NCBI GenBank assembly: GCA_020851235.1
Contig: JADZDD010000004.1
Location: 1-64,000, forward strand
Direction of reading: 5' to 3'
From: Burkholderiales bacterium
Lineage (GTDB): Bacteria; Pseudomonadota; Gammaproteobacteria; Burkholderiales; Casimicrobiaceae
DNA length: 64,000 nucleotides
The notes below the pieces were generated by a model, which worked only from the letters and a program-made list of their open reading frames with translations, searched no databases and was not told the origin of the DNA. The translations under genes and the position numbers were made by a program. Of the stretch, positions 42,436 to 57,101 are shown in pieces (the first letter of the stretch is position 1; the number at the start of each line of letters is the position of its first letter).

Positions 42436-43085
42436 GCGACCTCGGGCCGAGGGGACCGACACACGAGCCGCAACCGATCGCGAATCTGCGGGCGAATCGT
42501 CCTGGCCCACGGCGTGTCGACCGCCTGCTTCCACTCGGCCGAGAGCTGCACCTCGGGTGTGGTGAGGCGATACGTCGCGATGTACTTGCGATTGCCCCGC
42601 ACCGACCGGTAGCGCCGTGCCTCGAGCACGTCCGGAAGCGCAAAGAGGAGAGGCACGTGCTCCTCCACGTACCAGCGGTTGAACTCGTCCTCGAGCACCG
42701 GACTCACGTTCACGGCGATGAAGAGAAAACCTTGCGCCGCCTGCCGTCCTGGCTTGCGCCACTGGCCGGTGATGACGGCCTCGTAGACATCCTGCGCGGC
42801 GGCGTCGGGGATGCGCCGCGTCCGCGGCGGTCTTCCGTCGCCCTCGGGCGCAGGGCCGGCCGGTCTCGCGATGGCGTCCTCGGACGAGGCGTCGAAGATC
42901 GTGAGCGTACGCGGCTCACCGTCGGCGACGATCCACCGCTCCGCTCCCACGAAGCCCGGTACGGTGAGGGGTTTCGGGGCGCCCTCGGCAGCGTGCCAGG
43001 CGTCGAGTTCTTCCCGGTCGACGGCCTTGGGCGTCATCACGACGAAGACCGAGGCGCGCACCGGGTCATCCGAGCGCGCCGTCAC
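42432..43085 (-). CDS. EthD-like/dimeric alpha-beta barrel protein of unknown function
   Basis: A 217-residue protein starting at GTG 43085, coupled to the stop of the upstream DoxX-like gene (GTGA). Two halves each look like a ferredoxin-type dimeric barrel: VFVVMTPKAVDREELDAWH and FIAVNVSPVLEDEFNRWYVE, the second followed by PLLFALPDVLEARRYRS. That pattern occurs in EthD-type and muconolactone-isomerase-like proteins. The longer open frame upstream overlaps the membrane gene and is not used. Function unknown. Confidence 0.65.
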   Translation of the reverse strand: MTARSDDPVRASVFVVMTPKAVDREELDAWHAAEGAPKPLTVPGFVGAERWIVADGEPRTLTIFDASSEDAIARPAGPAPEGDGRPPRTRRIPDAAAQDVYEAVITGQWRKPGRQAAQGFLFIAVNVSPVLEDEFNRWYVEEHVPLLFALPDVLEARRYRSVRGNRKYIATYRLTTPEVQLSAEWKQAVDTPWARTIRPQIRDRLRLVCRSPRPEVA

Positions 43086-43477
43086 AGCGGCCACCCCGCG
43101 CCGTCGAGCCACGTCTTCAGCATCGCCGGATCGAGTCGGATGTATGCAACGATCGACAAGAGGGCTATAGGCACTGCCGGCTCGCGCAGGCGACGGAACT
43201 CGCCGTGTACCAGCAAAGTTGCGAACGCTACCAACATGAATGGCAGCAGCGCCAGTGCCGCCAGTCCGGAAAAGCTTGGAATCAGCAGGTAAAGCGCGCC
43301 ATGAATCCAGATCACGATGAGAAAGAATGCGATTTTCTCTGGAACTGGATACCCCCAACGCCTGAACTCATCCGTGACTCGCTGAAACCTCGTGGTCTTC
43401 CTATACGCCGAGACAAAGAAGATCTTAGCAGCGTAGATCTGGCACGACCAAACGACCACTGCCAAGATACTCGTCAT
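43082..43477 (-). CDS. Small four-helix membrane protein, DoxX-like
   Basis: A 131-residue protein with hydrophobic stretches at about 3-22, 48-67, 70-92 and 103-118, and FQRVTDEFRRWGYPVPEK in the first loop, a pattern seen in DoxX-like proteins. ATG 43477 was chosen over an upstream in-frame start because the protein then begins at the first helix. It heads a three-gene overlapping run with the EthD-like and isochorismatase-like genes. GC is visibly lower than in the genes to the left, so it marks the start of the composition change. Confidence 0.6.
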   Translation of the reverse strand: MTSILAVVVWSCQIYAAKIFFVSAYRKTTRFQRVTDEFRRWGYPVPEKIAFFLIVIWIHGALYLLIPSFSGLAALALLPFMLVAFATLLVHGEFRRLREPAVPIALLSIVAYIRLDPAMLKTWLDGAGWPL

Positions 43478-43596: not shown

Positions 43597-45045
43597 CTAA
43601 ATCCCACCCATCAGGATGTACTTGATCTCGACGTACTCGTCGATGCCGTGCATCGAGCCCTCACGACCGATGCCCGACTCCTTGATGCCGCCAAACGGTG
43701 CGAGCGCGGTGGAAATGAGACCGGTATTGACACCGACGATGCCGTACTCCAGGGCCTCGGCAACACGCCACACCCGGCCGATGTCGCGGCTGTAGAAGTA
43801 CGCGGCAAGGCCAAACTGCGTCGCATTGGCGAGTTCGATGACCTCACTGTCGTCGCGAAAGCGATAGATGGGCGCCACAGGTCCGAAGGTCTCCTCCTCG
43901 GTGATGAGCATGGCCGTCGTCACGTTCTTGAGGACGGTCGGCTCGAAGAACGTGGTGCCGAGCGTCGAGCGGCGGCCACCGAGCACGACTTCCGCACCCT
44001 TGCGCACGGCGTCGGCGATGTGCTCCTCGACCTTCTCCACCGCCGCCATGTTGATGAGCGGCCCCTGCGTGACGCCGCGCTCCACGCCATCACCGAGTTT
44101 CAGTTGCTTCACGGCCGCGACGAGCCGCTGGCAGTAGTCGTCGTAGACCGAGTCATGCACGTAGATGCGGTTCGAGCACACACACGTCTGGCCCATGTTG
44201 CGGTACTTCGACGCGATCGTGCCTTCCACGGCCGCGTCCAGATCCGCGTCGTCGAAAACGATGAGCGGCGCGTTGCCGCCGAGTTCCAGCGCAACCTTCT
44301 TGACCGTCGAGGCACACTGCCGCATCAGGATCTTGCCGATCTCGGTCGATCCCGTGAAGGTGACGCCGCGGACGTCCGGATGCGTGGTCCACTCCTCGCC
44401 GATCTCGGCCGACTTGCCGGTGATCACGTTGAGCACACCAGGCGGAATCCCCGCCTGGTGCGCCAATTCGGCGAGGGCCAGCGCGGTGAGTGGCGTCTCG
44501 GTCGCCGGTTTGGACACGACGGTGCAGCCGGCCGCAAGCGCGGGCCCGACCTTCCGGGTAATCATCGCAGCCGGGAAGTTCCACGGCGTGATTGCTGCAA
44601 TGACGCCCAAGGGTTGTCGGATGGTGACGATGCGGGCGTCCTTGCGATGGCTCGGCATCGTCTCGCCGTAGATTCGTTTCGCCTCCTCGGCGTAGTACTC
44701 GACGTACGACGCTGCGTAGTCGATCTCACCCAGCGCTTCGGCCAGCGGCTTTCCCTGTTCCGAGGTCAGGATGAGCGCCATGTCTTCGCGGTTCGCCACG
44801 ATGAGGTCGAACCAGCGGCGCAACGCCGATGAACGTTCCAGTGCAGTCTTCGCTGACCATGTAGCAAGTGCAGCCTTGGCCGCCGCCACAGCTTCCCTCG
44901 CCTCCGCTTTCCCGAACCTGGGAACCTTGGCCAGTGTCGCCCCGGTGGCCGGATTCGTGACCGGAACCGCGGGTTCGCCGATCCAGCGACCATTGACGTA
45001 GCACGCCTCGCGCAGCAGTGCCGGGTTAGCCAGTTTCGATTTCAC
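43597..45045 (-). CDS. gabD: Succinate-semialdehyde dehydrogenase (NAD(P)+)
   Basis: Oxidises succinate semialdehyde, or a related omega-oxo acid, to the diacid. GTG 45045 was chosen because GGAGG precedes it and the product is then 482 residues, the E. coli GabD length, with the family start KSKLANPALLREACYVNGRW. PWNFPAAMITRK, FTGSTEIGK, LELGGNAP (general base Glu) and GQTCVCSNR (catalytic Cys) are present; the CVC pattern is typical of GabD. It is the last gene of the seven-gene catabolic run, 90 bp after the beta-hydroxyacid dehydrogenase, so the real substrate may be a pathway semialdehyde rather than the GABA product. Confidence 0.9.
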   Translation of the reverse strand: MKSKLANPALLREACYVNGRWIGEPAVPVTNPATGATLAKVPRFGKAEAREAVAAAKAALATWSAKTALERSSALRRWFDLIVANREDMALILTSEQGKPLAEALGEIDYAASYVEYYAEEAKRIYGETMPSHRKDARIVTIRQPLGVIAAITPWNFPAAMITRKVGPALAAGCTVVSKPATETPLTALALAELAHQAGIPPGVLNVITGKSAEIGEEWTTHPDVRGVTFTGSTEIGKILMRQCASTVKKVALELGGNAPLIVFDDADLDAAVEGTIASKYRNMGQTCVCSNRIYVHDSVYDDYCQRLVAAVKQLKLGDGVERGVTQGPLINMAAVEKVEEHIADAVRKGAEVVLGGRRSTLGTTFFEPTVLKNVTTAMLITEEETFGPVAPIYRFRDDSEVIELANATQFGLAAYFYSRDIGRVWRVAEALEYGIVGVNTGLISTALAPFGGIKESGIGREGSMHGIDEYVEIKYILMGGI

Positions 45046-45135
45046 AATACCTCCAGTCGTTGCCAATCCATTCGTCAAGGGACCGCGGTCTCTTCACGCA
45101 ATCTGCCGATTCAGGTGGGGTGCGAGTGCTGCGAC

Positions 45136-46047
45136 CTAGACGTGGCGGGACGACTGTCTCACCTTGGCGGAGGCGCGCAGTGCGTCGATGAGTTCGCTAT
45201 CGTTCAGATCCCCCATCCCGTGCTCAAGCATCTGTCCGAAGACCCCTATCGTCGCATGTCCGAGAACCGACTGTGCACCCTCTCGTTCGATGAGATTCAC
45301 ACCGTAGTCCACATCCTTGATACGCATCCTTCCGGAGAACTGAATCGGATCCTCATGCTGATTCTCCGCCATGTATCGCGAATGACGAACGACATGGGGA
45401 CTGCCTGTCGCACCGGTTGAGAATCCCTCGGCAGCAACCCTAAGATCGATCCCCGCCATCTCACAGGCAAACATCCCCTCCGCTGTCGCGGCGACCTGAA
45501 TCGCGCCCATAACGTTGTAGATGAGCTTGAATGTGATCCCAGTCCCGACAGGACCCATGTGGATGATTCCCGCGCCGTTGCTGATGGCGTTAAGCATGGG
45601 TCGCAGTGCGTCGACATCTTGACGCGCACCACCGGCGAAGACCTTTAGCCGTCCTGCCTCAGCGACGTCCGGACGGCCAGCAACTGGGCAATCCAAGAAG
45701 CGCAATCCCTTATCCATCGCCAAGCGCGCGAGCTCGCGGATCCAGTCGATCGATACGGTCGACGCCTCGATCGCATACGCACCGGGCTTGAACTCCCCTT
45801 GGAGCGCACCATTGCTCCCACTCCAGCATTGCCTTGATGCCTCGTCATTCGTCAGGCTGGAAATGATGACATCAGCACCTCCGGCGGCCTCCCTTGGTGT
45901 GGCTGCCAACGTCGCACCCAGCGCCATCAATGGCCGGGCCTTGTCCTGAGTCCGGTTGTAGACCGTCACCGCGTGCCCACTCTTGAGATAGTTCTTGATC
46001 ATTGCGGCGCCCATCATGCCGGCGCCAAGGAATGCGATTCTTGCCAT
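45136..46047 (-). CDS. NAD(P)-dependent beta-hydroxyacid dehydrogenase (HIBADH family)
   Basis: A 303-residue member of the 3-hydroxyisobutyrate/tartronate-semialdehyde/6-phosphogluconate dehydrogenase family. MARIAFLGAGMMGAAM is the dinucleotide fold. LDCPVAGRPDVAEAGRLKVF is close to the usual substrate signature, with Arg-Pro-Asp in place of the common SGG. GPVGTGITFKLIYNVM holds the catalytic Lys. ATG 46047 gives the expected N-terminus. It lies 62 bp after the beta-diketone hydrolase gene. It could reduce or oxidise a beta-hydroxy acid intermediate of the pathway; the substrate is open. Confidence 0.85.
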   Translation of the reverse strand: MARIAFLGAGMMGAAMIKNYLKSGHAVTVYNRTQDKARPLMALGATLAATPREAAGGADVIISSLTNDEASRQCWSGSNGALQGEFKPGAYAIEASTVSIDWIRELARLAMDKGLRFLDCPVAGRPDVAEAGRLKVFAGGARQDVDALRPMLNAISNGAGIIHMGPVGTGITFKLIYNVMGAIQVAATAEGMFACEMAGIDLRVAAEGFSTGATGSPHVVRHSRYMAENQHEDPIQFSGRMRIKDVDYGVNLIEREGAQSVLGHATIGVFGQMLEHGMGDLNDSELIDALRASAKVRQSSRHV

Positions 46048-46109
46048 ATGGATTTCCGTCGAGGATGTTTGCGCGCGAAACTGAAAGTTGAGATCACCGT
46101 GGGAGATGG

Positions 46110-46895
46110 TTACGCTGGACGCGTTATGCAAAGTCCTTCCAGAGCAAGCCCGTAGGGAAGCAAGTCACTCATGCGCCTACGTAATTCTTCAACGAGCAGG
46201 ATGCGGGAGTACCGGCGATTCAGTTCTGGCTGCTCGAGAATCTTCCGGGCCAAATCCCTTGCTCTCGGGAGCAGGCTCGAACGCGGAACCACCTCGTTCA
46301 CAAGACCGACTGCCATCGCATCGCGGGCACTCAACACCTGTCCGGTCAGCAGGAAGTAGCGAGCTCGATTGAGACCCATTGCCATTGGAAAGACGACGTG
46401 TACGCCATCGCCGGGGACGAGCCCACCAACGAAGTGAGCAGAATCCTGAAATGTGGCCTCTTCTGCTGCCAGCACGATGTCGCACATTATCGGCAACTCT
46501 GCATGCCGGGAAGCCGGCCCATTGACTGCACTGATCATGGGAACGTCGATCGCGAGCATATTGGTCAGGAGTCGATTCGACTCCCATCCAAGTTCACCCC
46601 ACTCGTCTGGTGTCTGATGATGGTATTTCCGATTCGCAGCCGGCTCCGCGACTGGACCCGAGAACTCGGCGCCGGTACCCGTGAGAATGATTACCTGATT
46701 CTCCCGATCGCGCCCGATGTTGAGGAACACCTCCTCGAGTTCAGCGTGGGGGATGCGACCCCAGCGCAACGGCCCGTCATTGGTACAGAGCTGAACCTCA
46801 AGAATGCCGCCGTTCCTCGACAATCTCACGTTCTCGTACTTGTCGCGGTAGTCCTCGAACGAAGTTCTCAACCGCTTCACGTCGACTACTGTCAT
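46110..46895 (-). CDS. 6-oxocamphor hydrolase-like beta-diketone hydrolase (crotonase superfamily)
   Basis: A 261-residue crotonase-fold protein, ATG 46895 with AGGAGGAA upstream. It resembles Rhodococcus 6-oxocamphor hydrolase along its whole length as I recall it (DKYENVRLSRNGGIL, DRENQVIILTGTG, DIVLAAEEATFQD, RYFLLTGQVLSARDA). The three catalytic residues of that enzyme, His122, His145 and Asp154, correspond to His131 (SRHAELP), His154 (SAHFVGG) and Asp163 (PGDGVHVV), each with the same offset of nine. That enzyme opens a cyclic 1,3-diketone by a retro-Claisen reaction without CoA. A similar ring opening is likely here, with an unknown substrate. Confidence 0.82.
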   Translation of the reverse strand: MTVVDVKRLRTSFEDYRDKYENVRLSRNGGILEVQLCTNDGPLRWGRIPHAELEEVFLNIGRDRENQVIILTGTGAEFSGPVAEPAANRKYHHQTPDEWGELGWESNRLLTNMLAIDVPMISAVNGPASRHAELPIMCDIVLAAEEATFQDSAHFVGGLVPGDGVHVVFPMAMGLNRARYFLLTGQVLSARDAMAVGLVNEVVPRSSLLPRARDLARKILEQPELNRRYSRILLVEELRRRMSDLLPYGLALEGLCITRPA

Positions 46896-46941
46896 TGCAT
46901 TCCTCCTCGCGACCTTGTGTGTGGCGTGGACAACGACCACG

Positions 46942-48663
46942 CTACTTACCATCTCCCGGCTGTCTCCCCTCGCGGATCCCGTCTAGCCCATCAAAGAATG
47001 TGATCGGGGGATAGGCTTCGGCATCGGTGATCACGTCAATGACTGTGGTTTCCCGTGATGCGATGGCCTCACGGAGGGCTGGCAAATAGTCTTCGGCCTT
47101 CTCGACAACGACCCCCCTGCATCCAGCGGCTCGGGCCACTGCGGCATGATCGACCGGTGCGAAGTAGCACTTGACACTATGACGGCCGAACTTCACATCC
47201 TCCGCATCTTTTTGATAGCCGAGACAGCCGTTGTTGAGCACGGTCAGGACGATCGGTGTGCCCTCCCGGTGCGCCGTCTCCAGCTCGGACCACACGTGTG
47301 CAAACCCACCATCGCCCACCATGCATAGGACCGGACTCGACGGTCTCGCGCACTTGGCACCGATCGCCATCGGCAAGCCCCATCCAAGCCCCGCGATCCC
47401 GCGCGGTGTGATGAACCGCATGCCTGCGTTTAGCGAGGTCAGGTAACAGGCGACCCACAGCGTTGCGTAACTCGCGTCCGCGACCATGATCGTGTCGGAT
47501 GTGGCAACCTGACGAATATCCGCGGCCAGCCGCTCGGGACGAATCGGCGCCGAATCCGAAGACTCGAGCGCGGCGATATCCCTCGCATGCGCGGCCTTCG
47601 CTCCTGCAATCTGAGACTCCACGCTCGGATCGGACCGCCGCCGGCCCTTAAGCCTGCGATGCAAATCCTGTAGCGTGAGCTTGGCGTCGCCGCACAAGCG
47701 CAACGCCTCGTAGTTGCGCCCGATTTCAAGTCCATCTACGTCGATATGAATATAGCGAGCGGCGTGTGGATACAATTTCCACGAATCCGTGCCATTCTGG
47801 TTAGTTCTCGTGCCCACCAGAAGGACGACGTCCGCTTGGTCGATCACCGGCCTCATGTATCGCCCCGGGGAGAGTTTGCCAAGAGCATAGCCCGCCACGC
47901 CCATAGAGAGAGGGGAACGTTCATCCACGGCTCCCTTGCCCATAACCGTCGTCATGACTGGAATGAAGCAATCCTGTTGCACCGCCTCAACTTCCTTACA
48001 GGCTCCTGAAAGATGTACCCCACCGCCGGCGACAATCACCGGATGTCGCGCCTCTGCCAGCCATGCTGCCGCTTGCTCGATACGAGCCGGATCCGCCAGC
48101 GTACGATCGAGCGGAAACCGCCCAAGACTTGCCGACCGCGGTGACTCGCCATCGACGTTCGCAATCAACAGATCAGCGGGGAGGATCAGGGCGACCGGCC
48201 CCGGACGTCCACTCGCCGCAGTAGCAAACGCCATGTCCACGTAGTCAATCACGCGACTCGGTTCCGTAACGCGCCGAACCCATTTCGTGCAGCTCTGGAA
48301 CAGCGTCACGTGGTCGTACTCCTGGAACGCGTTGCGATCTGTCTCCAGTCGATTCACGTCTTGCACCAATGCGACAATCGGCACAGACGCCTTCAACGCT
48401 TCCGCAAGACCTGGCACCAGCAACGCGGCTGCGGGGCCATTCTGTGCGGTGACGACGGCGACTTTCCCCGTCGTTCGCGCATATCCGTCGGCCATCGCTG
48501 TACCTGCATTCTCTGTCCGGTACATGAAGTGCCGAATCTGAATATCTTCGGCGGCCTGCACTAACGCGGACGGAAGGCACTGAGAGAACATCACCTCCAC
48601 ACCGTGGCGGCGCAGGCAATCCGCAATAATCTGAGCGACGCTATGCCCCTTTACGCTTGACAT
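46942..48663 (-). CDS. Thiamine-diphosphate enzyme, acetolactate synthase/diketone hydrolase-like
   Basis: A 573-residue ThDP enzyme, ATG 48663 with AAGGGA upstream. Glu51 (RTENAGTAMADGYAR) is the cofactor-activating residue, and GDGGFAHVWSELETA (450-464) with LNNGCLGY forms the Mg-pyrophosphate site. FSQCLPS replaces the usual FGVPG-type start, and NGPAAALLVPGLAEA is kept. Superfamily relatives include acetolactate synthase, IolD (cyclohexanedione ring opening) and cyclohexane-1,2-dione hydrolase. With a beta-diketone hydrolase, Mo enzyme and semialdehyde dehydrogenase in the same run, a C-C-cleaving catabolic role is more likely than branched-chain amino acid synthesis. Gaps to neighbours are 46 and 113 bp. 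Confidence 0.82.
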   Translation of the reverse strand: MSSVKGHSVAQIIADCLRRHGVEVMFSQCLPSALVQAAEDIQIRHFMYRTENAGTAMADGYARTTGKVAVVTAQNGPAAALLVPGLAEALKASVPIVALVQDVNRLETDRNAFQEYDHVTLFQSCTKWVRRVTEPSRVIDYVDMAFATAASGRPGPVALILPADLLIANVDGESPRSASLGRFPLDRTLADPARIEQAAAWLAEARHPVIVAGGGVHLSGACKEVEAVQQDCFIPVMTTVMGKGAVDERSPLSMGVAGYALGKLSPGRYMRPVIDQADVVLLVGTRTNQNGTDSWKLYPHAARYIHIDVDGLEIGRNYEALRLCGDAKLTLQDLHRRLKGRRRSDPSVESQIAGAKAAHARDIAALESSDSAPIRPERLAADIRQVATSDTIMVADASYATLWVACYLTSLNAGMRFITPRGIAGLGWGLPMAIGAKCARPSSPVLCMVGDGGFAHVWSELETAHREGTPIVLTVLNNGCLGYQKDAEDVKFGRHSVKCYFAPVDHAAVARAAGCRGVVVEKAEDYLPALREAIASRETTVIDVITDAEAYPPITFFDGLDGIREGRQPGDGK

Positions 48664-48776
48664 GGTAAGTCCCTTTCTGTTCGCGTGATGACGTGTACAC
48701 AAGGAAACGACAAATTCTGTGCAAGTTGCGCGGCCCATGATCAGTCCGCCATGACAGGTCCACGCTGCCCCACGGC

Positions 48777-49628
48777 TCAGGTTGCTCGTTGGAGAGCGAT
48801 CTCCGCTAGCGCAATGCTGTGGCTGTCAAACATGAACTCCAGATCTCTAGGAACGAAGGAAGCATGTGACACATGCAGACGTAGCGCCCTTGGCCGAGGC
48901 TCTAGTCGATCAATCTTGAATTCCCCAAATGCATCGGTGACAGCGGAACCGATGCATGCAGTTCCATCGAACAATTCCACCGTTGCGTCCGAAACACAGT
49001 CAGCGACATCATTTGAGATCGCGACCACCGTTCCCGCGACGAACTCCTTGTTGTAACGGTGCAAGTTCTTGTAGAGGACGCGCGGCCGTGTCTTGAACTC
49101 GGGAGCCAATTCCTCTAGCCCCTCGTCCTGGGTGATCCTCCGCATTTCATCGTCCGATACCTTGAACGATCTCATCGCGCCCGTGGGGCACGCCTTCACA
49201 CAACGGGGGGCGTCGGCACCACGGTCTAGCAGATGCGCATCGAACGTCCACGCTTGCGGGAGATCAAGTTCTGCGTTCCACCAAATCGCGCCATACGGGC
49301 AAGCGTCGACGAGATCCGACCGTCCCCTTGCCTTCACCGGGTCGATAATGACTATGCCATCTTCACGCTTGGTCACTGCCCCCCGACCTGCCTTGACGCA
49401 TGGGGCGTCGTCGCAGTGATTGCACATCGTGGGAACGTACGCAACGTCGACGAACGGAAAGCTGCCTCGCTCCCTGCTCTTGATGTCGATCCACTTATGC
49501 CCGTGGAGCGGCTGTGGGGCAGAGTACCCGGGGAACTCGTTCCCAACGTACTCATCTTTCGCACTTATGAAGCAGTTGTTGCAGTTATGGCATTCCGCAA
49601 CATCGATCACCAGATTCCATTTCTTCAC
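48777..49628 (-). CDS. Fe-S subunit of transhydroxylase/resorcinol hydroxylase-like molybdoenzyme
   Basis: A 283-residue DmsB-type ferredoxin subunit starting at GTG 49628, overlapping the stop of the large subunit (GTGA). It follows Pelobacter transhydroxylase small subunit (AthS) closely as I recall it: VIDVAECHNCNNCF, NEFPGYSAPQP, KREDGIVIIDP, RPRVLYKNLHRY, then a C-terminal transthyretin/Ig-like domain (about 199-283). Cysteines are at 13, 16, 19, 69, 72, 77, 110, 143 and 147. Three expected ligands are replaced: Ala23, Trp127 and Asp130 (QAWTFDAH where relatives have QKCxxCAH). By ferredoxin pairing these belong to one cluster, so two [4Fe-4S] clusters probably remain. Confidence 0.88.
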   Translation of the reverse strand: MKKWNLVIDVAECHNCNNCFISAKDEYVGNEFPGYSAPQPLHGHKWIDIKSRERGSFPFVDVAYVPTMCNHCDDAPCVKAGRGAVTKREDGIVIIDPVKARGRSDLVDACPYGAIWWNAELDLPQAWTFDAHLLDRGADAPRCVKACPTGAMRSFKVSDDEMRRITQDEGLEELAPEFKTRPRVLYKNLHRYNKEFVAGTVVAISNDVADCVSDATVELFDGTACIGSAVTDAFGEFKIDRLEPRPRALRLHVSHASFVPRDLEFMFDSHSIALAEIALQRAT

Positions 49629-52624
49629 TTGACCCACTCCTTCCGATCCCATTTCTCGATCTCGATCAAGCATGAATTCGGCGAGGATGATGACGTCTTC
49701 GCGCTGATGTGGCGCTTCGGCGTCAGGATGTTCACGCACCCTCCGATATCAGGAGACGTGCCCGGATCTCCGATGGGTCGATACTCTGCGGAGGACTCAT
49801 AGCTATGGACAACCCCCGGCATGACACGCCCCGTCAGCGCTGCGGCACAGATCACCGAACCGCGATCGTTGTACAACTTGATCAGATCCCGGTCTTGGAT
49901 TTCACGGGATGCCGCGTCGATAGGATTCAAGCGGGCGACCCAGTAGTAATACCCATCGACCTCAATGCGGTGATCGACAATGTCATTAAGTACGGAATCC
50001 TTGCCATCACCCATTGTGTGGAAGCTGAATCGCGGATGAGGTGTGATGAGTTGCAGCGGGTACTTGGCGAACAGTTCCTTCGTCTGCCGCCCCTCCCACG
50101 ATGGTACGTACCGGTTAATCGGCGGTCGCTCGGGGTCGTCGAATCGCTTGAGACTGGACGGCTCGAACTCAAACTTGCCTGACTGCGTCTGCAATCCCTC
50201 GAGATACTTCTCCCCATACTCGCCGGGAAGGGGGGATGGTTCCGGTACGTCCTTCTTCCGCCCTTCTGCAAACCATCGCATGCTCGCTGGGGCCCGATTC
50301 TCCTGTTTGTGTTCGGCTGGGACCACGTAGTAGCCCTTCCTGAGAAACTCCTTCCACGAGATCACCTTCGACAGATCCGAGCTCAGGAATTGCTCCCTGC
50401 ACCACTGCAACTCCGTCTTCGCTTCACCGAAGTACGCACTGAGACCCAGCCGTTGAGCAAGTTCGAGGAAGATTCGAAAATCGGACTTCGACTCGCCCAA
50501 TGGCTCAATGCACTTGTGTTGCAGTGTGATTACCCTGTGATTGAGCTGGTTGTAATTGTGATGGCCATAGCCACCGGACGAAGCCCACTCCGAGATATCC
50601 GTTCGCTCGAAATTCGTGCATGCTGGAAGGATCACATCCGCGAACTGCGTCTCTCCCTCGTTCCAGATTGACTGGTTCACGACGAACTCTAAGCCCTCCG
50701 ATCGGTACGCCTTCGCCAGCCGGTTCGATTCCATGGTTGTACCGAAATGTGATCCGCCGTACTTGTAGAGCATTCGGATCGGAGAATGCCCAGCTGCCGG
50801 GTACGCGAAACGCTGGAACTGCCCCTCAAGTGATTTTGAATCTGTCGGATAGCCCTCTGCCTCTCCATCAAGGATCGCTTCAGGTATTCGTAGTCGTGAG
50901 ATGCGCTGGCTCGCGGTGTTCATGCTGATGAGATGTGGCATGCGCTGATAGTTCTGAACCGCGTCTGCCGTTCCCTCGATGTCTCCAGAAATGCCACCGT
51001 CGGCGTAACCCGGAAAATAGAATTGCATGTCCAATGGCGCGCCGGCCGTGAGATTGCCGAAATTCACCCCTGGTTTTCCAAGCCCTTGCATTGCCATCAG
51101 ACAGACCATGCTTCTCGCCCACTGGATCCCGGTCGCTCCGCGATTGGCGCCGCCGAATCCGAGGCCCTTGCCGCCGCAGGACAGATAGGTCCTCTTCGTA
51201 CCCCATTGCCGCGCAAGCGCGCGGACCACCTGCGGCTGAACTCCGGTCTCGGCCGCCTGCCATTCCGGTGATTTTTCGATACCATCCTCCTCGCCGAGTA
51301 CGTAGGCCACATATTTCTCGAAGCCAGTCGTGCGAGTTAGGACATACTCCTTGTCGTATAGGCCTTCCTTGATCCATACGTACGCGATCGCATGTGCGAG
51401 TGCCGGCCCCGTCCCCGGAACAATCGGGATCCACTTCCCGCCGATCCACGATGCCGTCGTGTTCTTGTACGGATCGATGTGAATCATCTGAATACCGAGC
51501 TCGCGCGCCCACTGGCGCCTTACTGTTGCTTCGAATGCGGCGTAAGACCCGCATGTTGTCTCGGGGTCGGAGGCCCAGTAGACGATTAGCTCAGCCTCCT
51601 TGAGGCAGTCCTCGACTTGACCATACGGCTCCGCAGTTCCCATCCGCATCGTGTAGCCGTAGTGATGCGATGCTCCCCAGAACCAGCCTTCCCAACTATC
51701 CGGATTCAAGACCATCTTCGTGTAGCCGATGGCGTTCATGAATCGGATATTCGAACTCAGGTAATAGCCGATGTTTCCCCATGTGTGGTGCGAACTGTGA
51801 CTATTGAGGATGGCCCCGTGTCCGTGCGCGCGCCTGACCCGCTTGATCTCGTTAGCCGTGATGTCGAGTGCTTCGTCCCAAGAAATCCTGACGTATCCGG
51901 ACTTGCCCCGATTCTGTGGATTGCGCTCGCCATTCGGATCGAAATCGATCCGCCGCATCGGGTATAGGAGTCGCTTGCTCGAATACACCAGCGACTTGGA
52001 TGCAAGCCCATGTGGGCTCAGCGTGGCGCGGTGTGGAGGTGTGAACACCCTACCTCGTGCTTCGATCGACCAAGGGCCGGAGTCCTCAGCGCCAAATTCG
52101 ACGGGCGTGACCCGGACGATCCTCCCATCCTTAACATAAACGAAGACAGGGCCTCCGTTTGTCTGATTCACATACCTCGTCTCGCCGCCGGCGACTTGCA
52201 GTCCCTGTTTCCAGTAGTGAGTAAGCAGCGTGTTAAGGATGTCTGTAAAATGCAAGGTGAATTCGTCGTCGCCCTTGACCTCAAATGCAAAGTTCTTGGC
52301 CGCGCTGACCACCTCCATGGGTTCGAGAAACGGCTTGAGTAAGGGATACGCGAAGTGGAACATTCCTGAGCCGAGGTGAATGAGTACCCGGCTCCCCAAG
52401 CTGGCGCTCTTGAACTGGATAACGACGTCCGGTGCCGCAGCGATCCCGGCTGCAGATGTCATCTTTCCAGCGGCGAAGCGATACCACCGTCCCACCGAAC
52501 CGTCCTTTACCCGGATCTGCGCCACGAAGTCCTTCTTCGCCATGAGCTCGCGAAGCACAGGCGACCGCGCCGCATGCACGTTCAATGCGATCGACAGAAT
52601 CCGTAGCAGTACGGAGAACACCAT
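49625..52624 (-). CDS. Molybdopterin (bis-MGD) oxidoreductase large subunit, AthL/RhL-like, with SCP2-like N-terminal region
   Basis: A 999-residue DMSO-reductase-family catalytic subunit. It resembles pyrogallol-phloroglucinol transhydroxylase (AthL, about 875 residues) and resorcinol hydroxylase. The remembered AthL site residues His144, Asp174, Ser175 (Mo ligand) and Trp176 map with a constant offset of 135 to His279 (SSHHTWGN) and Asp309-Ser310-Trp311 (NPDSWEGW); Tyr404 probably maps to Tyr540. Like AthL it lacks an N-terminal Fe-S motif. Residues about 20-130 are extra and resemble an SCP2 lipid-binding domain (GSVGRWYRFAAGK, PDVVIQFKSA, FAFEVKGDDEF). There is no twin-Arg signal, so it is probably cytoplasmic, perhaps membrane-associated through residues 2-16. 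Confidence 0.88.
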   Translation of the reverse strand: MVFSVLLRILSIALNVHAARSPVLRELMAKKDFVAQIRVKDGSVGRWYRFAAGKMTSAAGIAAAPDVVIQFKSASLGSRVLIHLGSGMFHFAYPLLKPFLEPMEVVSAAKNFAFEVKGDDEFTLHFTDILNTLLTHYWKQGLQVAGGETRYVNQTNGGPVFVYVKDGRIVRVTPVEFGAEDSGPWSIEARGRVFTPPHRATLSPHGLASKSLVYSSKRLLYPMRRIDFDPNGERNPQNRGKSGYVRISWDEALDITANEIKRVRRAHGHGAILNSHSSHHTWGNIGYYLSSNIRFMNAIGYTKMVLNPDSWEGWFWGASHHYGYTMRMGTAEPYGQVEDCLKEAELIVYWASDPETTCGSYAAFEATVRRQWARELGIQMIHIDPYKNTTASWIGGKWIPIVPGTGPALAHAIAYVWIKEGLYDKEYVLTRTTGFEKYVAYVLGEEDGIEKSPEWQAAETGVQPQVVRALARQWGTKRTYLSCGGKGLGFGGANRGATGIQWARSMVCLMAMQGLGKPGVNFGNLTAGAPLDMQFYFPGYADGGISGDIEGTADAVQNYQRMPHLISMNTASQRISRLRIPEAILDGEAEGYPTDSKSLEGQFQRFAYPAAGHSPIRMLYKYGGSHFGTTMESNRLAKAYRSEGLEFVVNQSIWNEGETQFADVILPACTNFERTDISEWASSGGYGHHNYNQLNHRVITLQHKCIEPLGESKSDFRIFLELAQRLGLSAYFGEAKTELQWCREQFLSSDLSKVISWKEFLRKGYYVVPAEHKQENRAPASMRWFAEGRKKDVPEPSPLPGEYGEKYLEGLQTQSGKFEFEPSSLKRFDDPERPPINRYVPSWEGRQTKELFAKYPLQLITPHPRFSFHTMGDGKDSVLNDIVDHRIEVDGYYYWVARLNPIDAASREIQDRDLIKLYNDRGSVICAAALTGRVMPGVVHSYESSAEYRPIGDPGTSPDIGGCVNILTPKRHISAKTSSSSPNSCLIEIEKWDRKEWVK

Positions 52625-52661
52625 GTCCTAGTACTCCCGATTAGCAAAAAGATGCTCAGGC

Positions 52662-53636
52662 TCAATTGAGACTGATGCCCGCCGCTTTGATGACCGTTTC
52701 CCAGCGCCTGCGCTCGATCATCGCGTAGTCAGCGAACTCCTTGCCGGTCATTGGTGTCGGTAGAATTCCAAGATCCTCCAACTTGCCACGAACCGGCGGC
52801 GCAACCAGTGCCTTTCGAAGGGCGGCGTCCAGCCTGTCCACGACGGCGGGGGGCGTTCCTGCCGGCGCAACGATGCCTTGCCACGCGTAAGCCACGAAGT
52901 CAGGTACGCCGACCTCGCCCAGCGTCGGAACGTTCGGCAGCAGCGCAACGCGCTCGGGCATTGCGACGCCGAGCATCACAACCCTTCCCGCCTTCATGTA
53001 GCTGATGCCACCAGGCATGTCCAGCATCATGAGATCGACCTGACCGCCAAGGATGTCCTGCAGCGCTGGGGCGCCACCCTTGTAGGGAACGTGAACAAAC
53101 TTCGTTCCGGTACGCTGCTGGAACAACTCCATGGCTAGGTGGTGCGGCGTGCCGAGACCCGCCGACGCATAGGTCAGCTTGCCGGGCCGGGACTTTGCCA
53201 ACGCGATCAAATCACTTACCGAATCGACACCCAGCCCGGTTCGTGTAACCAGGACGAACGGATTCCGGCTAATGCTACCTACGTAGGAGAAGCTCGTTTC
53301 GATCTTGTACGGCAGGCTTGCATACAAGCTAGGGTTGAACGCCAATGTGCCGGAGTCTGCCGTCATCACGGTCAGTCCATCGGCCGGCGATGCAATGAGT
53401 GCTTGCGCCCCGATGATCGTACCCGCACCTGGCTTGTTGTCGACGATTACCGCATCACCAAGGTCCGCCTTCATGGCCTCAGCTAGAACCCGAGCGACCA
53501 TGTCCGATCCGCCACCAGCCGGATAGGGAACGATCCAACGTATCGTCCGTCCGCCACTTTGCGCCCAAACGACTCCGCACGATGCCGCCAACGCTAGCAT
53601 CGCGACCGCGACGGCGAATGTCCTAAGTTGTGTCAT
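52662..53636 (-). CDS. Bug/TctC-family periplasmic solute receptor
   Basis: A 324-residue periplasmic binding protein of the tripartite tricarboxylate transporter type. Signal peptide (MTQLRTFAVAVAMLALAAS, cleavage near VWAQ), then IRWIVPYPAGGGSDMVARVL, VDNKPGAGTIIGAQAL and HVPYKGGAPALQDILGGQVD. ATG 53636 has GAGAGG upstream. No TctA/TctB membrane subunits are in the window. It lies 37 bp before the Mo subunit gene on the same strand and is probably the first gene of the catabolic run, so its ligand may be the pathway substrate or a product. Confidence 0.9.
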   Translation of the reverse strand: MTQLRTFAVAVAMLALAASCGVVWAQSGGRTIRWIVPYPAGGGSDMVARVLAEAMKADLGDAVIVDNKPGAGTIIGAQALIASPADGLTVMTADSGTLAFNPSLYASLPYKIETSFSYVGSISRNPFVLVTRTGLGVDSVSDLIALAKSRPGKLTYASAGLGTPHHLAMELFQQRTGTKFVHVPYKGGAPALQDILGGQVDLMMLDMPGGISYMKAGRVVMLGVAMPERVALLPNVPTLGEVGVPDFVAYAWQGIVAPAGTPPAVVDRLDAALRKALVAPPVRGKLEDLGILPTPMTGKEFADYAMIERRRWETVIKAAGISLN

Positions 53637-53901
53637 CACTGGTCCTCTCTCTCCATTGACGAAGTTGGTCCAAACTTGCATTGATGCCGCGGTAAAACCG
53701 CTCATCGGACTGCGGCGACACGATGATCACACTCATGCCTCGGCTCCCGCAGCGACTGACCAACCAACCGCGCCCCATCGAGTGACTCGCGCTCACCCAG
53801 GAAACCGTGCCTTGACGTCACGAGGGCGCGCTGCGAACGCTTACTTAGGAGAGCCTAGATTCACCGTTCGCCTACGCTCCATCCCGTGTGAGGCGGCGTA
53901 C

Positions 53902-54510: not shown

Positions 54511-54555
54511 CTCAGAGTTCCTTGTCCGGCGCGTAGGGCATGGTGTATCGATTCC

Positions 54556-54574
54556 ATTATCACGTAGCGATAAT
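54556..54574. promoter_or_regulatory. Inverted repeat ATTATC-N7-GATAAT in a divergent promoter region
   Basis: A perfect 6-bp inverted repeat separated by seven bases lies between the nitroreductase and VOC genes, in the most AT-rich stretch of the window. Two more TTATC words follow at about 54612 and 54620. It could be an operator for the IclR regulator encoded 900 bp downstream, or -10 elements of the two promoters. Confidence 0.4.
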
Positions 54575-54641
54575 TGTGTTACATTTAATGGGCACTGTCA
54601 AGGCCTACCTATTATCTTGTTATCATTTGATGAGGATTCAG

Positions 54642-55208
54642 ATGACTTACGCCAATACCTCTGATCCGACGACTCAACGACTCTCCTTCAGTCACATCGG
54701 ATTCTTCGTTCATGACCTCGACCGGATGGCCGGCTTCTATCGAGACGTAATCGGCATGACCGAGACAGACCGTGGCGCACTCGAAGGCGCTCAACTCGTG
54801 TTTCTCAGCACCGATCCCGCCGAGCATCATCAAATTGCCCTCGTAACAGGTCGGCCCACCAATATGGGGTTCAATTGCATCAATCAGATTTCCTTCCGCG
54901 TACCTGACCTCGCGGCATTGCGCGAGGTGCGCCGCCGGGTGGCTGTAGACCCAGACGTATCCAATCTCGAATGCGCAACGCACGGGAATGCCCTCTCGAT
55001 CTACTTCCAAGATCCCGAGGGAAATCGGGTGGAGATCTTTTTCGACACGCCGTGGTATTGCGAGCAACCAATCCGCGAACCGATCGATCTCGAATGTGAC
55101 GATGGCGACATCATGGCTCGCGTCGAAGAGTTGGCCAGGAGTCGACCAGGGTTTCAGAGCAGGGCCATGTGGCAAAGACAGATGGCCAAACGCATGGGGC
55201 TGGCGTGA
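54642..55208 (+). CDS. VOC superfamily protein (glyoxalase/extradiol dioxygenase fold)
   Basis: A 188-residue protein with two beta-alpha-beta-beta-beta modules. FSHIGFFVHDLDRMAGFYRD carries a first metal His, INQISFRVPDLAALREV opens the second module with no His at the usual ligand spot, and PEGNRVEIFFDTPWY carries the metal Glu. This matches type I extradiol dioxygenase-like and fosfomycin-resistance-like VOC proteins. The C-terminal tail (about 35 residues) is polar. ATG 54642 has GAGG six bases upstream. It could be a ring-cleavage dioxygenase or an isomerase; the substrate is unknown. Confidence 0.8.
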   Translation: MTYANTSDPTTQRLSFSHIGFFVHDLDRMAGFYRDVIGMTETDRGALEGAQLVFLSTDPAEHHQIALVTGRPTNMGFNCINQISFRVPDLAALREVRRRVAVDPDVSNLECATHGNALSIYFQDPEGNRVEIFFDTPWYCEQPIREPIDLECDDGDIMARVEELARSRPGFQSRAMWQRQMAKRMGLA

Positions 55209-55454
55209 TGGCTGAGGTCTATAGATTCACGTCAGCGGTCGTCCCGCCATCTGGGTTGGCCAAGCATGGGTTGCAGTCGTCGGTTTGCACCGCATCTTCC
55301 GCGCGATGTTGCTCGGTGAACGGCTGCTACGGCATACTTCCCTGCCTCAGTCGCGGAAGCGATTCTTGATGTTATGCAGCCCAGCGGGACACACGCGAGG
55401 CTTGGGCGAGCTCAAGGACAATCTGTCACAGCCCTTGCAATCTCTCCTCGTCCG

Positions 55455-56207
55455 ATGGAAAAATCCACCGTCTCCACGTTTGCGCGGATGTTGCGCGTAC
55501 TCGACTTGTTCTCGGAAGACCACCTCGCACGGAGCGTCGATGAGATTGCCGATGAACTCGAGGTGTCGATCCCCACAGCGTATCGGTATATAAAACTGCT
55601 CACGCAATCCGGACTGCTTCAACGTGTGGCCGAATCGAGGTACACGCTTGGCCCACGAGTGATTGTTCTTGATCATCTCATTCGCATCGCTGATCCAATC
55701 CTCAAGCACGCAGTCCCCATCATGCGCGAGCTAGTCGCCGCAACGGGCTTCGATTGCGTGATCTCCGCACTCTTCGATCACAGATTACTTGATACGCATC
55801 GAGAGTTCGCATCGGAGCCAGTCACCCTCACCTATGGTCGCGGACGTCTCCGACCGTTGTTTCGTGGTGCTGGCGCAAAGGTCATCCTCGCAGGGATCCC
55901 GTCATCACATCTCCACAGATTGTTCGATGCGCGGCGCGACGAGGTGCGTGCCTCAGGCCTTCCTGTCGAGTGGAGCGAGTTTCGGCGTTACTATGCAGCA
56001 ATCCGCCGCGCAGGTCACTATTTCTCCGATGGCGAACTAGAGCCCAACGTTTCAGCTGTAGCTACGACACTCCATCGCTCCGATGGCTCAATCGCAGGTT
56101 CGATTTCACTGGTGTCGACGCGCCCTCGCATGGCAGTGGTCGACCGCCCCCGACTCGTCCAGGTGATACGCACGGCGGCTACGAGTATCAATTCTCGCCT
56201 GGAGTAA
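55455..56207 (+). CDS. IclR-family transcriptional regulator
   Basis: A 250-residue regulator: winged HTH at about 8-70 (RMLRVLDLFSEDHLARSVDE, LEVSIPTAYRYIKLLTQSGL), then the IclR effector-binding domain (PIMRELVAATGFDCVISAL, GAGAKVILAGIP, SVSLVSTRP-type end). IclR proteins commonly control aromatic and alicyclic catabolic operons in response to pathway intermediates. ATG 55455 fits the family N-terminus, although no strong ribosome site is seen; ATG 55374 is the alternative. It lies among the catabolic genes, followed by the FAH-family gene 27 bp downstream, and may control both divergent sides. Confidence 0.88.
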   Translation: MEKSTVSTFARMLRVLDLFSEDHLARSVDEIADELEVSIPTAYRYIKLLTQSGLLQRVAESRYTLGPRVIVLDHLIRIADPILKHAVPIMRELVAATGFDCVISALFDHRLLDTHREFASEPVTLTYGRGRLRPLFRGAGAKVILAGIPSSHLHRLFDARRDEVRASGLPVEWSEFRRYYAAIRRAGHYFSDGELEPNVSAVATTLHRSDGSIAGSISLVSTRPRMAVVDRPRLVQVIRTAATSINSRLE

Positions 56208-56234: not shown

Positions 56235-57101
56235 GTGCGACTAATTAGTTATGTCTCAAATGGGAGTTCCAGCTACGGCGCGGTTGTCGGCGACTCGGTT
56301 CTTGATCTCGGGCAACTCATCGGAGACAGGGCGCCGGACCTCAAGGCAGCATTGGCAGGGGATCTCTTACCGGAGTTGCGCCGCTTCGTGGCCGAGCGGC
56401 CCGCCACACTAAAGTTGGCTGGATTGACACTGCTCCCAGTAATCCCCAATCCAGGTCAGGTGTTTTGCGTCGGATTGAACTACGGAGATCACGTCCGCGA
56501 AACTGGACGTCAGGTTACAGAGAGCCCCGCGATCTTCATCCGAGTTCCATCCTCGCAGGTAGCGCATGGCGAGGCCATACTTCGACCCCTTGAATCAGAG
56601 CGGCTCGACTTCGAGGGAGAGATAGCAGTTGTGATCGGAACGGGTGGACGCCGGATTCCGGAACAGCTTGCGTGGAATCACATCGCGGGCTACAGCTGCT
56701 ACAACGATGGCAGTATCCGCGACTGGCAACTTGCCACATCTCAGTGGACACCTGGAAAGAACTTTTTCCGGACTGGTGCCTTCGGGCCATGGCTCGTCAC
56801 GTCTGACGAAATCCCACCTAATCATCTCATGACGCTGACGACCCGCCTCAACGGTCGGGAAATGCAACGAACCACAACCGACAGAATGATTCATAGCATT
56901 CCACGGCAGATCGCATTCATATCTGCCTTCACACCACTGGCGCCGGGCGATGTGATCGTCACCGGTACACCCGGTGGCGTTGGCAACAAGCGCACGCCGC
57001 CAATATTCATGAAGCCTGGAGATACCGTCGAGGTCGAGGTGGATGCGATTGGTGTGCTTCGAAACAGCATCGCTGACGACGATTCGCGGAGCGACCGCTA
57101 A
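56235..57101 (+). CDS. Fumarylacetoacetate hydrolase-family protein
   Basis: A 288-residue protein starting at GTG 56235 with GGAGG upstream. The FAH-type fold has VFCVGLNYGDHVRETG, LDFEGEIAVVIGTGGR (metal Glu pair), GYSCYNDGSIRDWQ (metal Asp), TPGKNFFRTGAFGPWLV and VIVTGTPGGVGNKRTPP. Members hydrolyse C-C bonds of 1,3-diketo or acylpyruvate acids, or hydrate 2-oxopentenoates and decarboxylate oxaloacetate. Together with the beta-diketone hydrolase this gives the region two separate C-C hydrolase candidates. It is cotranscribed with the IclR gene by spacing. Confidence 0.88.
   Translation: MRLISYVSNGSSSYGAVVGDSVLDLGQLIGDRAPDLKAALAGDLLPELRRFVAERPATLKLAGLTLLPVIPNPGQVFCVGLNYGDHVRETGRQVTESPAIFIRVPSSQVAHGEAILRPLESERLDFEGEIAVVIGTGGRRIPEQLAWNHIAGYSCYNDGSIRDWQLATSQWTPGKNFFRTGAFGPWLVTSDEIPPNHLMTLTTRLNGREMQRTTTDRMIHSIPRQIAFISAFTPLAPGDVIVTGTPGGVGNKRTPPIFMKPGDTVEVEVDAIGVLRNSIADDDSRSDR

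Follow-up and report, generated by a model that had tools for sequence, protein, structure and literature searches.

Anaerobic cleavage of phenol rings is known from few enzyme sets. The pyrogallol-phloroglucinol transhydroxylase of Pelobacter acidigallici, AthLS (PDB 4v4c), carries out its hydroxyl transfer with 1,2,3,5-tetrahydroxybenzene and has a small subunit with three [4Fe-4S] clusters, all kept though the reaction is redox-neutral, and in Azoarcus anaerobius hydroxyquinone is opened by BqdLMS, a multi-subunit enzyme that depends on thiamine diphosphate (ThDP) and is built like pyruvate dehydrogenase (PDH). RhL, of the resorcinol hydroxylase, and transhydroxylase belong to one group of molybdenum (Mo) enzymes with a Ser ligand (PMC10100899, in excerpt). 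Phloroglucinol is degraded in Clostridium scatologenes by PGR, DPGC (cyclase family, retro-Claisen), TfD and TAL (BKACE) (PMC10470551, in excerpt), and rings of this type derive from flavonoids and tannins (same excerpt) as well as from brown-algal phlorotannins (PMC12138666, in excerpt); for ThDP-dependent C-C cleavage in a ring dione, cyclohexane-1,2-dione hydrolase of Azoarcus, with His28 and Asn484 in its active site, offers a precedent (PMC12247030, in excerpt). Here we describe a run of seven genes that provides a testable gene set for another such pathway, found in a 64,000-nucleotide stretch (the window) of a Burkholderiales genome of the family Casimicrobiaceae (GenBank assembly GCA_020851235.1, contig JADZDD010000004.1, positions 1 to 64,000 of the forward strand).

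We assign a probability of about 0.5 to the reading that this run was acquired horizontally and is a catabolic operon for a polyhydroxylated ring of the phloroglucinol type, working independently of coenzyme A (CoA), with a core formed by the large (MoL) and iron-sulfur (FeS) subunits of a Mo enzyme, a ThDP enzyme, a 6-oxocamphor-hydrolase-type hydrolase (OCH) and a beta-hydroxyacid dehydrogenase. The run spans 53705-43597, entirely on the minus strand, with short gaps or overlaps between its seven genes, and comprises in order:

52662..53705, minus strand: Bug (TctC) periplasmic solute receptor, probably for uptake (Pfam PF03401, 248 bits)
49625..52624, minus strand: MoL, Mo enzyme large subunit of 999 amino acids (residues 148-995 align to AthL 4v4c_A, 979 bits; Pfam AhtL-like_1st and Molybdopterin)
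52184..52624, minus strand: N-terminal domain of MoL, predicted to have an SCP2-like fold and absent from AthL
48777..49652, minus strand: FeS, AthS-like iron-sulfur subunit (Pfam Fer4_11; 239.6 bits to AthS 4v4c_B)
46942..48738, minus strand: ThDP-dependent C-C bond enzyme of the NF004772/PRK06112 subfamily (three TPP domains; NCBIfam NF004772, 861 > 673 bits; the start may be internal to the open reading frame, ORF)
46110..46952, minus strand: OCH, 6-oxocamphor-hydrolase-type beta-diketone hydrolase (Pfam ECH_1; 257 bits to 1o8u; start probably internal)
45136..46131, minus strand: beta-hydroxyacid dehydrogenase of the HIBDH family (Pfam NAD_binding_2/NAD_binding_11; start probably 46047)
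43597..45078, minus strand: GabD-like succinate-semialdehyde dehydrogenase (Pfam Aldedh; curated cut-off of TIGR01780 passed, 721 > 646 bits)

The first-pass annotation of the window had proposed these seven genes in this order on one strand, as we found them, the Bug ORF reaching 53705, beyond the 53636 of the earlier span; its gene assignments are borne out by the Pfam, NCBIfam and PDB matches, and it was right to call the Mo enzyme kin to enzymes of phenol hydroxyl transfer. MoL does not group with respiratory reductases, AthL being both the PDB match at 979 bits and the neighbour in our tree. The most likely start of FeS, 49652, gives an overlap of 28 nucleotides with MoL. A scan for promoters and terminators did no better than chance, and no conclusion on transcription can be drawn from it.

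MoL shares 53% identity with AthL over the aligned columns, and its next PDB match reaches 235 bits. The AthL residues H144, D174, S175, W176, Y404 and Y560 are all retained, of which we take H144, D174, S175 and Y404 to have their roles in the Mo site, while MoL has Tyr at R153 and Phe at W354. Using a scan of GTDB genomes, we confirmed 575 MoL loci and kept the best 80, to which all counts out of 80 refer; in only 36 of them is MoL flanked by more than 5 kb of sequence on either side, so that counts of neighbours are lower bounds, and genes on the compared loci were called with a codon-score caller whose starts are unreliable. Proteins shorter than 800 (MoL) or 200 (FeS) amino acids were dropped before alignment, and for ten of 92 MoL rows the locus contains no FeS. 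In a tree of 93 rows, built by a quick method with SH-aLRT support only and a midpoint root, 87 MoL rows form a single clade (support 100) adjoining AthL, within which the window groups with the loci L015, L016 and L017 (99), the sister of this group being L018 with L022. A respiratory reductase was considered and ruled out by the distance between 979 and 235 bits and by AthL as tree neighbour under this midpoint root. Like AthLS, MoL/FeS appears as a two-subunit enzyme of the Ser-ligand group with its active-site residues retained, and to judge from these sequences it probably works like a transhydroxylase; it differs from AthLS in the SCP2-like N-terminal domain and in the loss of the presumed ligands of one Fe-S cluster, and since it departs from AthLS in these two structural features, we do not place it in AthLS proper. 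A second MoL copy, at L017:1085-4044, is called as two adjoining ORFs of 604 and 382 amino acids, either a real split or a sequence error.

The order MoL-FeS-ThDP-OCH recurs in three of the 80 loci, L015, L016 and L017, exactly the other members of the MoL clade of the window, and this recurrence argues that the arrangement is more than chance; it also rules out a neighbour set unique to the source genome. The dehydrogenase comes next after OCH in L016 and L017 (it is 52-69% identical to the homologues there and in the loci L134 and L135), and the contig of L015 stops within OCH. The called overlap between FeS and MoL is 28 nucleotides in L015 and 4 nucleotides in L016-L018. The records of L015-L017 are titled Hyphomicrobiales and Rhodobacteraceae. 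We conclude that the gene set is real and conserved, and probably mobile. Of the earlier proposal of a seven-gene unit, then, the recurring core stands and the two ends do not: in L015-L017 the core has no Bug next to it, and a search after the core in L016 and L017 found no GabD homologue, the contig of L015 being too short to tell. For transporters, TRAP genes were called in L015 and L017 and none of these families in L016.

In the alignment of the ThDP enzyme, the Glu of the RTENAG motif and the GDG motif are present in all ten sequences and the NN of the latter motif in nine of them (SN in L134). The enzyme is a single chain of the AHAS type, with plant AHAS as its better PDB match (188 bits) and cyclohexane-1,2-dione hydrolase (2pgn/4d5g) at about 139 bits; the latter shares the ThDP superfamily with it, is not its best match, and was compared by overall match only. 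With the cofactor Glu and the GDGG-NN motif present, the enzyme should act on a 1,2-dicarbonyl, an acyloin or a 2-oxo acid. A glyoxylate carboligase, considered as a partner for the HIBDH-family enzyme, was set aside, NF004772 being the sole model passed among 25 of 51 and the cofactor Glu being present. Kin of the ThDP enzyme (57-60%; L152 and L153) are plasmid-borne: one neighbours genes annotated as shikimate dehydrogenase and GMC oxidoreductase on a Sinorhizobium pSymA, the other a dihydroxyacetone kinase on an Azospirillum plasmid.

OCH is 53% identical to 6-oxocamphor hydrolase (1o8u) over the aligned columns and belongs to the same crotonase family. H45, H122, H145 and D154 are retained in all 12 sequences aligned to 1o8u, and E244 in 11, that of L015 being cut by the contig end; since these five residues, which we take to be the catalytic ones of 6-oxocamphor hydrolase, are all present, OCH should hydrolyse a 1,3-diketone, in a genomic setting that is of a phenol type and not of a camphor type. 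The dehydrogenase keeps the Lys motif and has PVAGRP in five of five aligned sequences where the HIBDH family usually has PVSGG, so that its substrate may be unusual. The presence of GabD suggests that a semialdehyde is among the products.

From family membership, conserved active sites, co-conservation and the loss of cluster ligands, all of which the sequences show, we infer a substrate, a reaction order, the single reactions and a single transcript as follows. MoL/FeS would move or install a ring hydroxyl, giving a ring with meta-related and probably also vicinal oxygens, the keto tautomer of which would be a cyclic beta-diketone that has an alpha-diketone or acyloin next to it. OCH would then hydrolyse the 1,3-diketone C-C bond in retro-Claisen fashion, the ThDP enzyme would cleave the bond between 1,2-related carbonyls, the dehydrogenase would turn a beta-hydroxy acid into a beta-oxo acid or the reverse, and GabD would oxidise the semialdehyde, with no CoA ester required. 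Both kinds of bond would be available in a ring that has oxygens in vicinal as well as in meta positions, 1,2,3,5-tetrahydroxybenzene being an example; that tetrahydroxybenzene or phloroglucinol is the actual intermediate seems doubtful to us. A settled reaction order is not supported. If the scheme is true, ring opening would need neither oxygen nor CoA and might operate in aerobes.

The small subunit bears on the first of these steps. AthS C23, C126, C129 and C145 correspond to A, W, D and C in FeS, so that three of the four presumed ligands of one [4Fe-4S] cluster are gone and FeS departs from the three-cluster layout of AthLS. Among 83 aligned small subunits, FeS included, this Cys set is intact in all 30 of the C-C type and in none of the 53 of the W-D type, to which FeS belongs; the set 68/71/76/109 is complete in all 83 and the set 13/16/19/149 in 77 of 83. 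Two exceptions were found, L080, of the W-D type outside the proteobacterial clade, and L024, with a full ligand set inside it. By analogy to NarH-type subunits, we take Cys 23/126/129/145 to be the ligands of the middle cluster, the loss of which would cut the electron wire. A broken wire suggests that the Mo step is a redox-neutral hydroxyl transfer and not a hydroxylation with electrons leaving via FeS.

That last possibility would make MoL/FeS a net hydroxylase of the resorcinol-hydroxylase type, taking its oxygen from water and passing electrons to respiration, with the ThDP enzyme opening a hydroxyquinone. The Mo lineage that MoL has in common with the RhLS enzyme of Azoarcus anaerobius (the one Ser-ligand group of PMC10100899, in excerpt) fits such a scheme, as do the ThDP enzyme gene directly next in the run and the five matches to the COX1 family above cut-off in the source genome, on the strength of which the organism very likely respires oxygen. 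We nevertheless find it unlikely: the presumed middle cluster of the wire is without its ligands, and the single AHAS-type chain is unlike the BqdLMS enzyme, of which no PDH-like subunits occur among the annotated genes of the run (a comparison by description, not by sequence).

MoL carries about 145 N-terminal residues that AthL does not have. This domain matched no Pfam model at E<1, five such domains run against Pfam gave a single match, for L048 and at chance level (0.19), and nothing convincing came from PDB sequences. An AlphaFold model, based on 57 sequences (56 of 78 listed sequences and that of the window), reached a pLDDT of 88.6 and a pTM of 0.80, and gave 22 Foldseek matches at E<=0.001, with UbiJ-SCP2 at the top (2.5e-05); UbiJ-SCP2 and AF1534, together with alkylsulfatases, are the leading matches (E 2.5e-05 to 8.5e-04), alkylsulfatases and TT1886 making up the rest. 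For the chains of UbiJ and AF1534 the TM-score is 0.43-0.52 when taken by query and 0.53-0.63 when taken by target. The modelled domain resembles SCP2 at the level of the fold only. Because the SCP2 domain of UbiJ serves a ubiquinone synthesis complex (PMC9499169, in excerpt), our guess, by analogy, is that the domain might hold hydrophobic phenols. In five loci (L018, L042, L052, L084 and L090) a short, AthL-sized MoL stands beside the long type, and the side-by-side occurrence suggests that the two do different jobs; the short forms of L052 and L084 share just 35% identity with AthL. At L018:7305-13003, the AthL-sized form without the SCP2-like domain lies back to back with the long one, beside a phloroglucinol gene set.

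The link to phloroglucinol-type chemistry that had been proposed for the run is upheld by the loci of its relatives and by a second island in the source genome. At least two of DPGC, TfD, TAL and cupin genes (labelled by sequence cluster, representatives of which were compared with Pfam or NCBIfam) lie near MoL in 11/80 loci; under a rough model of 23 kb in 4 Mb, the probability of at least 11 of 80 is about 1.7e-12, a value to be read as an order of magnitude only because the relatedness of the loci is ignored. The sister locus L018 is among the 11 and has all four genes, its DPGC being cut by the locus end. In the genome of L017, a DPGC (75% to the query from L078), a TfD-like gene and a BKACE-like gene share the contig with the run, and a PGR-like gene (48%) lies on another contig. 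The source genome has a second low-GC stretch (L109, C13:201001-220900; GC 0.58 vs 0.70 before it), in which two DPGC-like cyclases in tandem, TfD and an ABC transporter are joined by two OCHs (64% and 70%) and a LysR gene as well as by a ThDP enzyme (59%) and a fumarylacetoacetase (504 > 375 bits). On plasmids of Paraburkholderia and Pseudonocardia (two records inspected of 36 with an OCH match), OCH directly follows a cyclase-family gene. OCH was detected at E<=1e-40 in 12/399 genomes of the order and 5/398 of the phylum, two genomes being in both lists; a close ThDP homologue adjoins it in four of the 12 (G000, G044, G167 and G206), and G123 (locus L139) has a distant homologue (27%) some 5 kb from it.

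In the described PGR-DPGC-TfD-TAL pathway, a cyclic beta-diketone is opened by retro-Claisen cleavage and a beta-hydroxy acid is then oxidised (PMC10470551, in excerpt), as we propose for the run, and the genes of that pathway flank relatives of MoL. By contrast, OCH and an HIBDH-family enzyme take the places of DPGC and TfD in the run, which includes a ThDP enzyme besides and lacks both PGR and TAL. That it feeds the known pathway was considered and is unsupported for L015 and L016, neither of which yielded an orthologue of DPGC or PGR (both are metagenome-assembled genomes, MAGs, with completeness not given). These gaps, and those in TAL, argue that an operon of the window type is not simply a feeder of the reductive pathway, and more likely an alternative to it.

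Several observations weigh against the proposed operon for phloroglucinol-type rings. Its scheme leaves the loss of ring aromaticity without explanation, and the best PGR match is 37% in the source genome and 35% in that of L016, with none at E<=1e-30 in that of L015, so that no orthologue was found. DPGC is absent from the genome of L016 and weak (3e-7) in that of L015, for TAL/BKACE the source genome has no match at E<=0.001 and the best matches in L015-L017 reach no more than 31-35% identity with the protein of L018. Of the four-gene set, the source genome has two DPGC copies and a TfD-like gene only. Its other ThDP and OCH copies are found with DPGC/TfD and not with its MoL paralogue (66%), a gene of native GC accompanied by FeS and Bug, within 20 kb of which there is no ThDP or OCH match. 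In G044, of the same genus, the MoL/FeS, PGR-DPGC-TfD and OCH/ThDP genes occupy three separate sites, and the ThDP kin on the Sinorhizobium and Azospirillum plasmids (two of 156 records inspected) sit in unrelated-looking operons. The ThDP-OCH-dehydrogenase triplet occurs without MoL in two genomes of the same taxonomic order (L134 and L135), behind a TcuA-like flavoprotein (typed in L135). As to redox neutrality, AthLS is redox-neutral yet has all three clusters, which leaves the cluster loss suggestive only; L024, with its full ligand set within the proteobacterial clade, is an exception.

The triplet without MoL, and the action of the named relative of OCH on 6-oxocamphor, would also fit a module for alicyclic or terpenoid ketones that has come to lie behind MoL by fusion of two modules with separate substrates; we consider this improbable, as both OCH/ThDP loci of the source genome are linked to MoL or DPGC/TfD, as is L017, and the MoL-linked arrangement is common to the three closest relatives, with records titled Hyphomicrobiales and Rhodobacteraceae.

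Horizontal acquisition, as part of the preferred reading of a catabolic operon, is indicated by base composition. GC in the window is 0.69-0.70 up to 41.8 kb, 0.67 in the stretch from the DoxX-like to the isochorismatase-like gene, 0.64 in GabD and 0.54-0.60 thence to the window end; the run, lying in this low-GC stretch, is probably part of a horizontally acquired island. The source genome comprises 3.93 Mb in 41 contigs and is 98.8% complete; a search of the assembly for 16S came back empty.

New in this analysis are the SCP2-like domain, the loss of ligands of one Fe-S cluster and, in the source genome, a second OCH/ThDP island that also carries DPGC/TfD. Open-licence PMC literature, judged by title or abstract start among the matches listed, contained nothing on the gene combination, on an SCP2-fused transhydroxylase or on a lost cluster, and the run may represent a way of dismantling phenol rings undescribed so far. 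The branch concerned is a large one within the transhydroxylase family (53 of the 83 aligned small subunits), without description among the matches listed, and its lost cluster predicts redox-neutral hydroxyl transfer. A wider proposal, which we put forward tentatively as a possibility, is that aerobic proteobacteria use this widespread SCP2-fused branch with its cut Fe-S wire to rearrange phenolic rings without O2, and that the clade of the window then opens the ring with neither reductase nor CoA, through OCH retro-Claisen cleavage at the 1,3-related carbonyls of the keto tautomer and a ThDP lyase at the 1,2-related ones.

The run may extend into DoxX-like, uncharacterised and isochorismatase-like genes at 43477-41863, and on its other side further genes diverge from it:

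43082..43477, minus strand: DoxX-like membrane protein, a possible extension of the run (Pfam DoxX_2)
54540..55208, plus strand: VOC protein, divergent, possibly of the same system (Pfam Glyoxalase)
55374..56207, plus strand: IclR-type regulator (Pfam IclR_C)
56235..57101, plus strand: FAH-family hydrolase (Pfam FAA_hydrolase, 222 bits)

A DoxX-like gene directly follows the dehydrogenase in L017, and an IclR-type match (30-31%) precedes MoL in L015 and L017. An O2-dependent pathway, in which the Mo enzyme prepares the ring, the VOC protein cleaves it as an extradiol dioxygenase, the FAH-family enzyme hydrolyses the product and the ThDP enzyme and OCH process the fragments, would account for the recurrence of VOC and FAH homologues near MoL in 4/80 and 8/80 loci and on Burkholderia and Salipiger plasmids (two inspected of eight MoL-matching records), and has little to commend it given that five aligned VOC proteins (that of the window and four relatives) have Gln at what we take to be the position of the second His ligand of extradiol dioxygenases and that the VOC protein has no match in L015, L016 or L017.

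Two further kinds of neighbours were met at the MoL loci. One is a second Mo enzyme, with acetylene hydratase as its closest PDB match (328 bits), which lies near MoL in 7/80 loci, among them L017 (17750-19972), and in L013. The other is a pair of small cupin genes that lies with MoL/FeS in L032, L040, L050, L069, L092 and L013, cupB being present in 6/80 and cupC in 5/80 loci.

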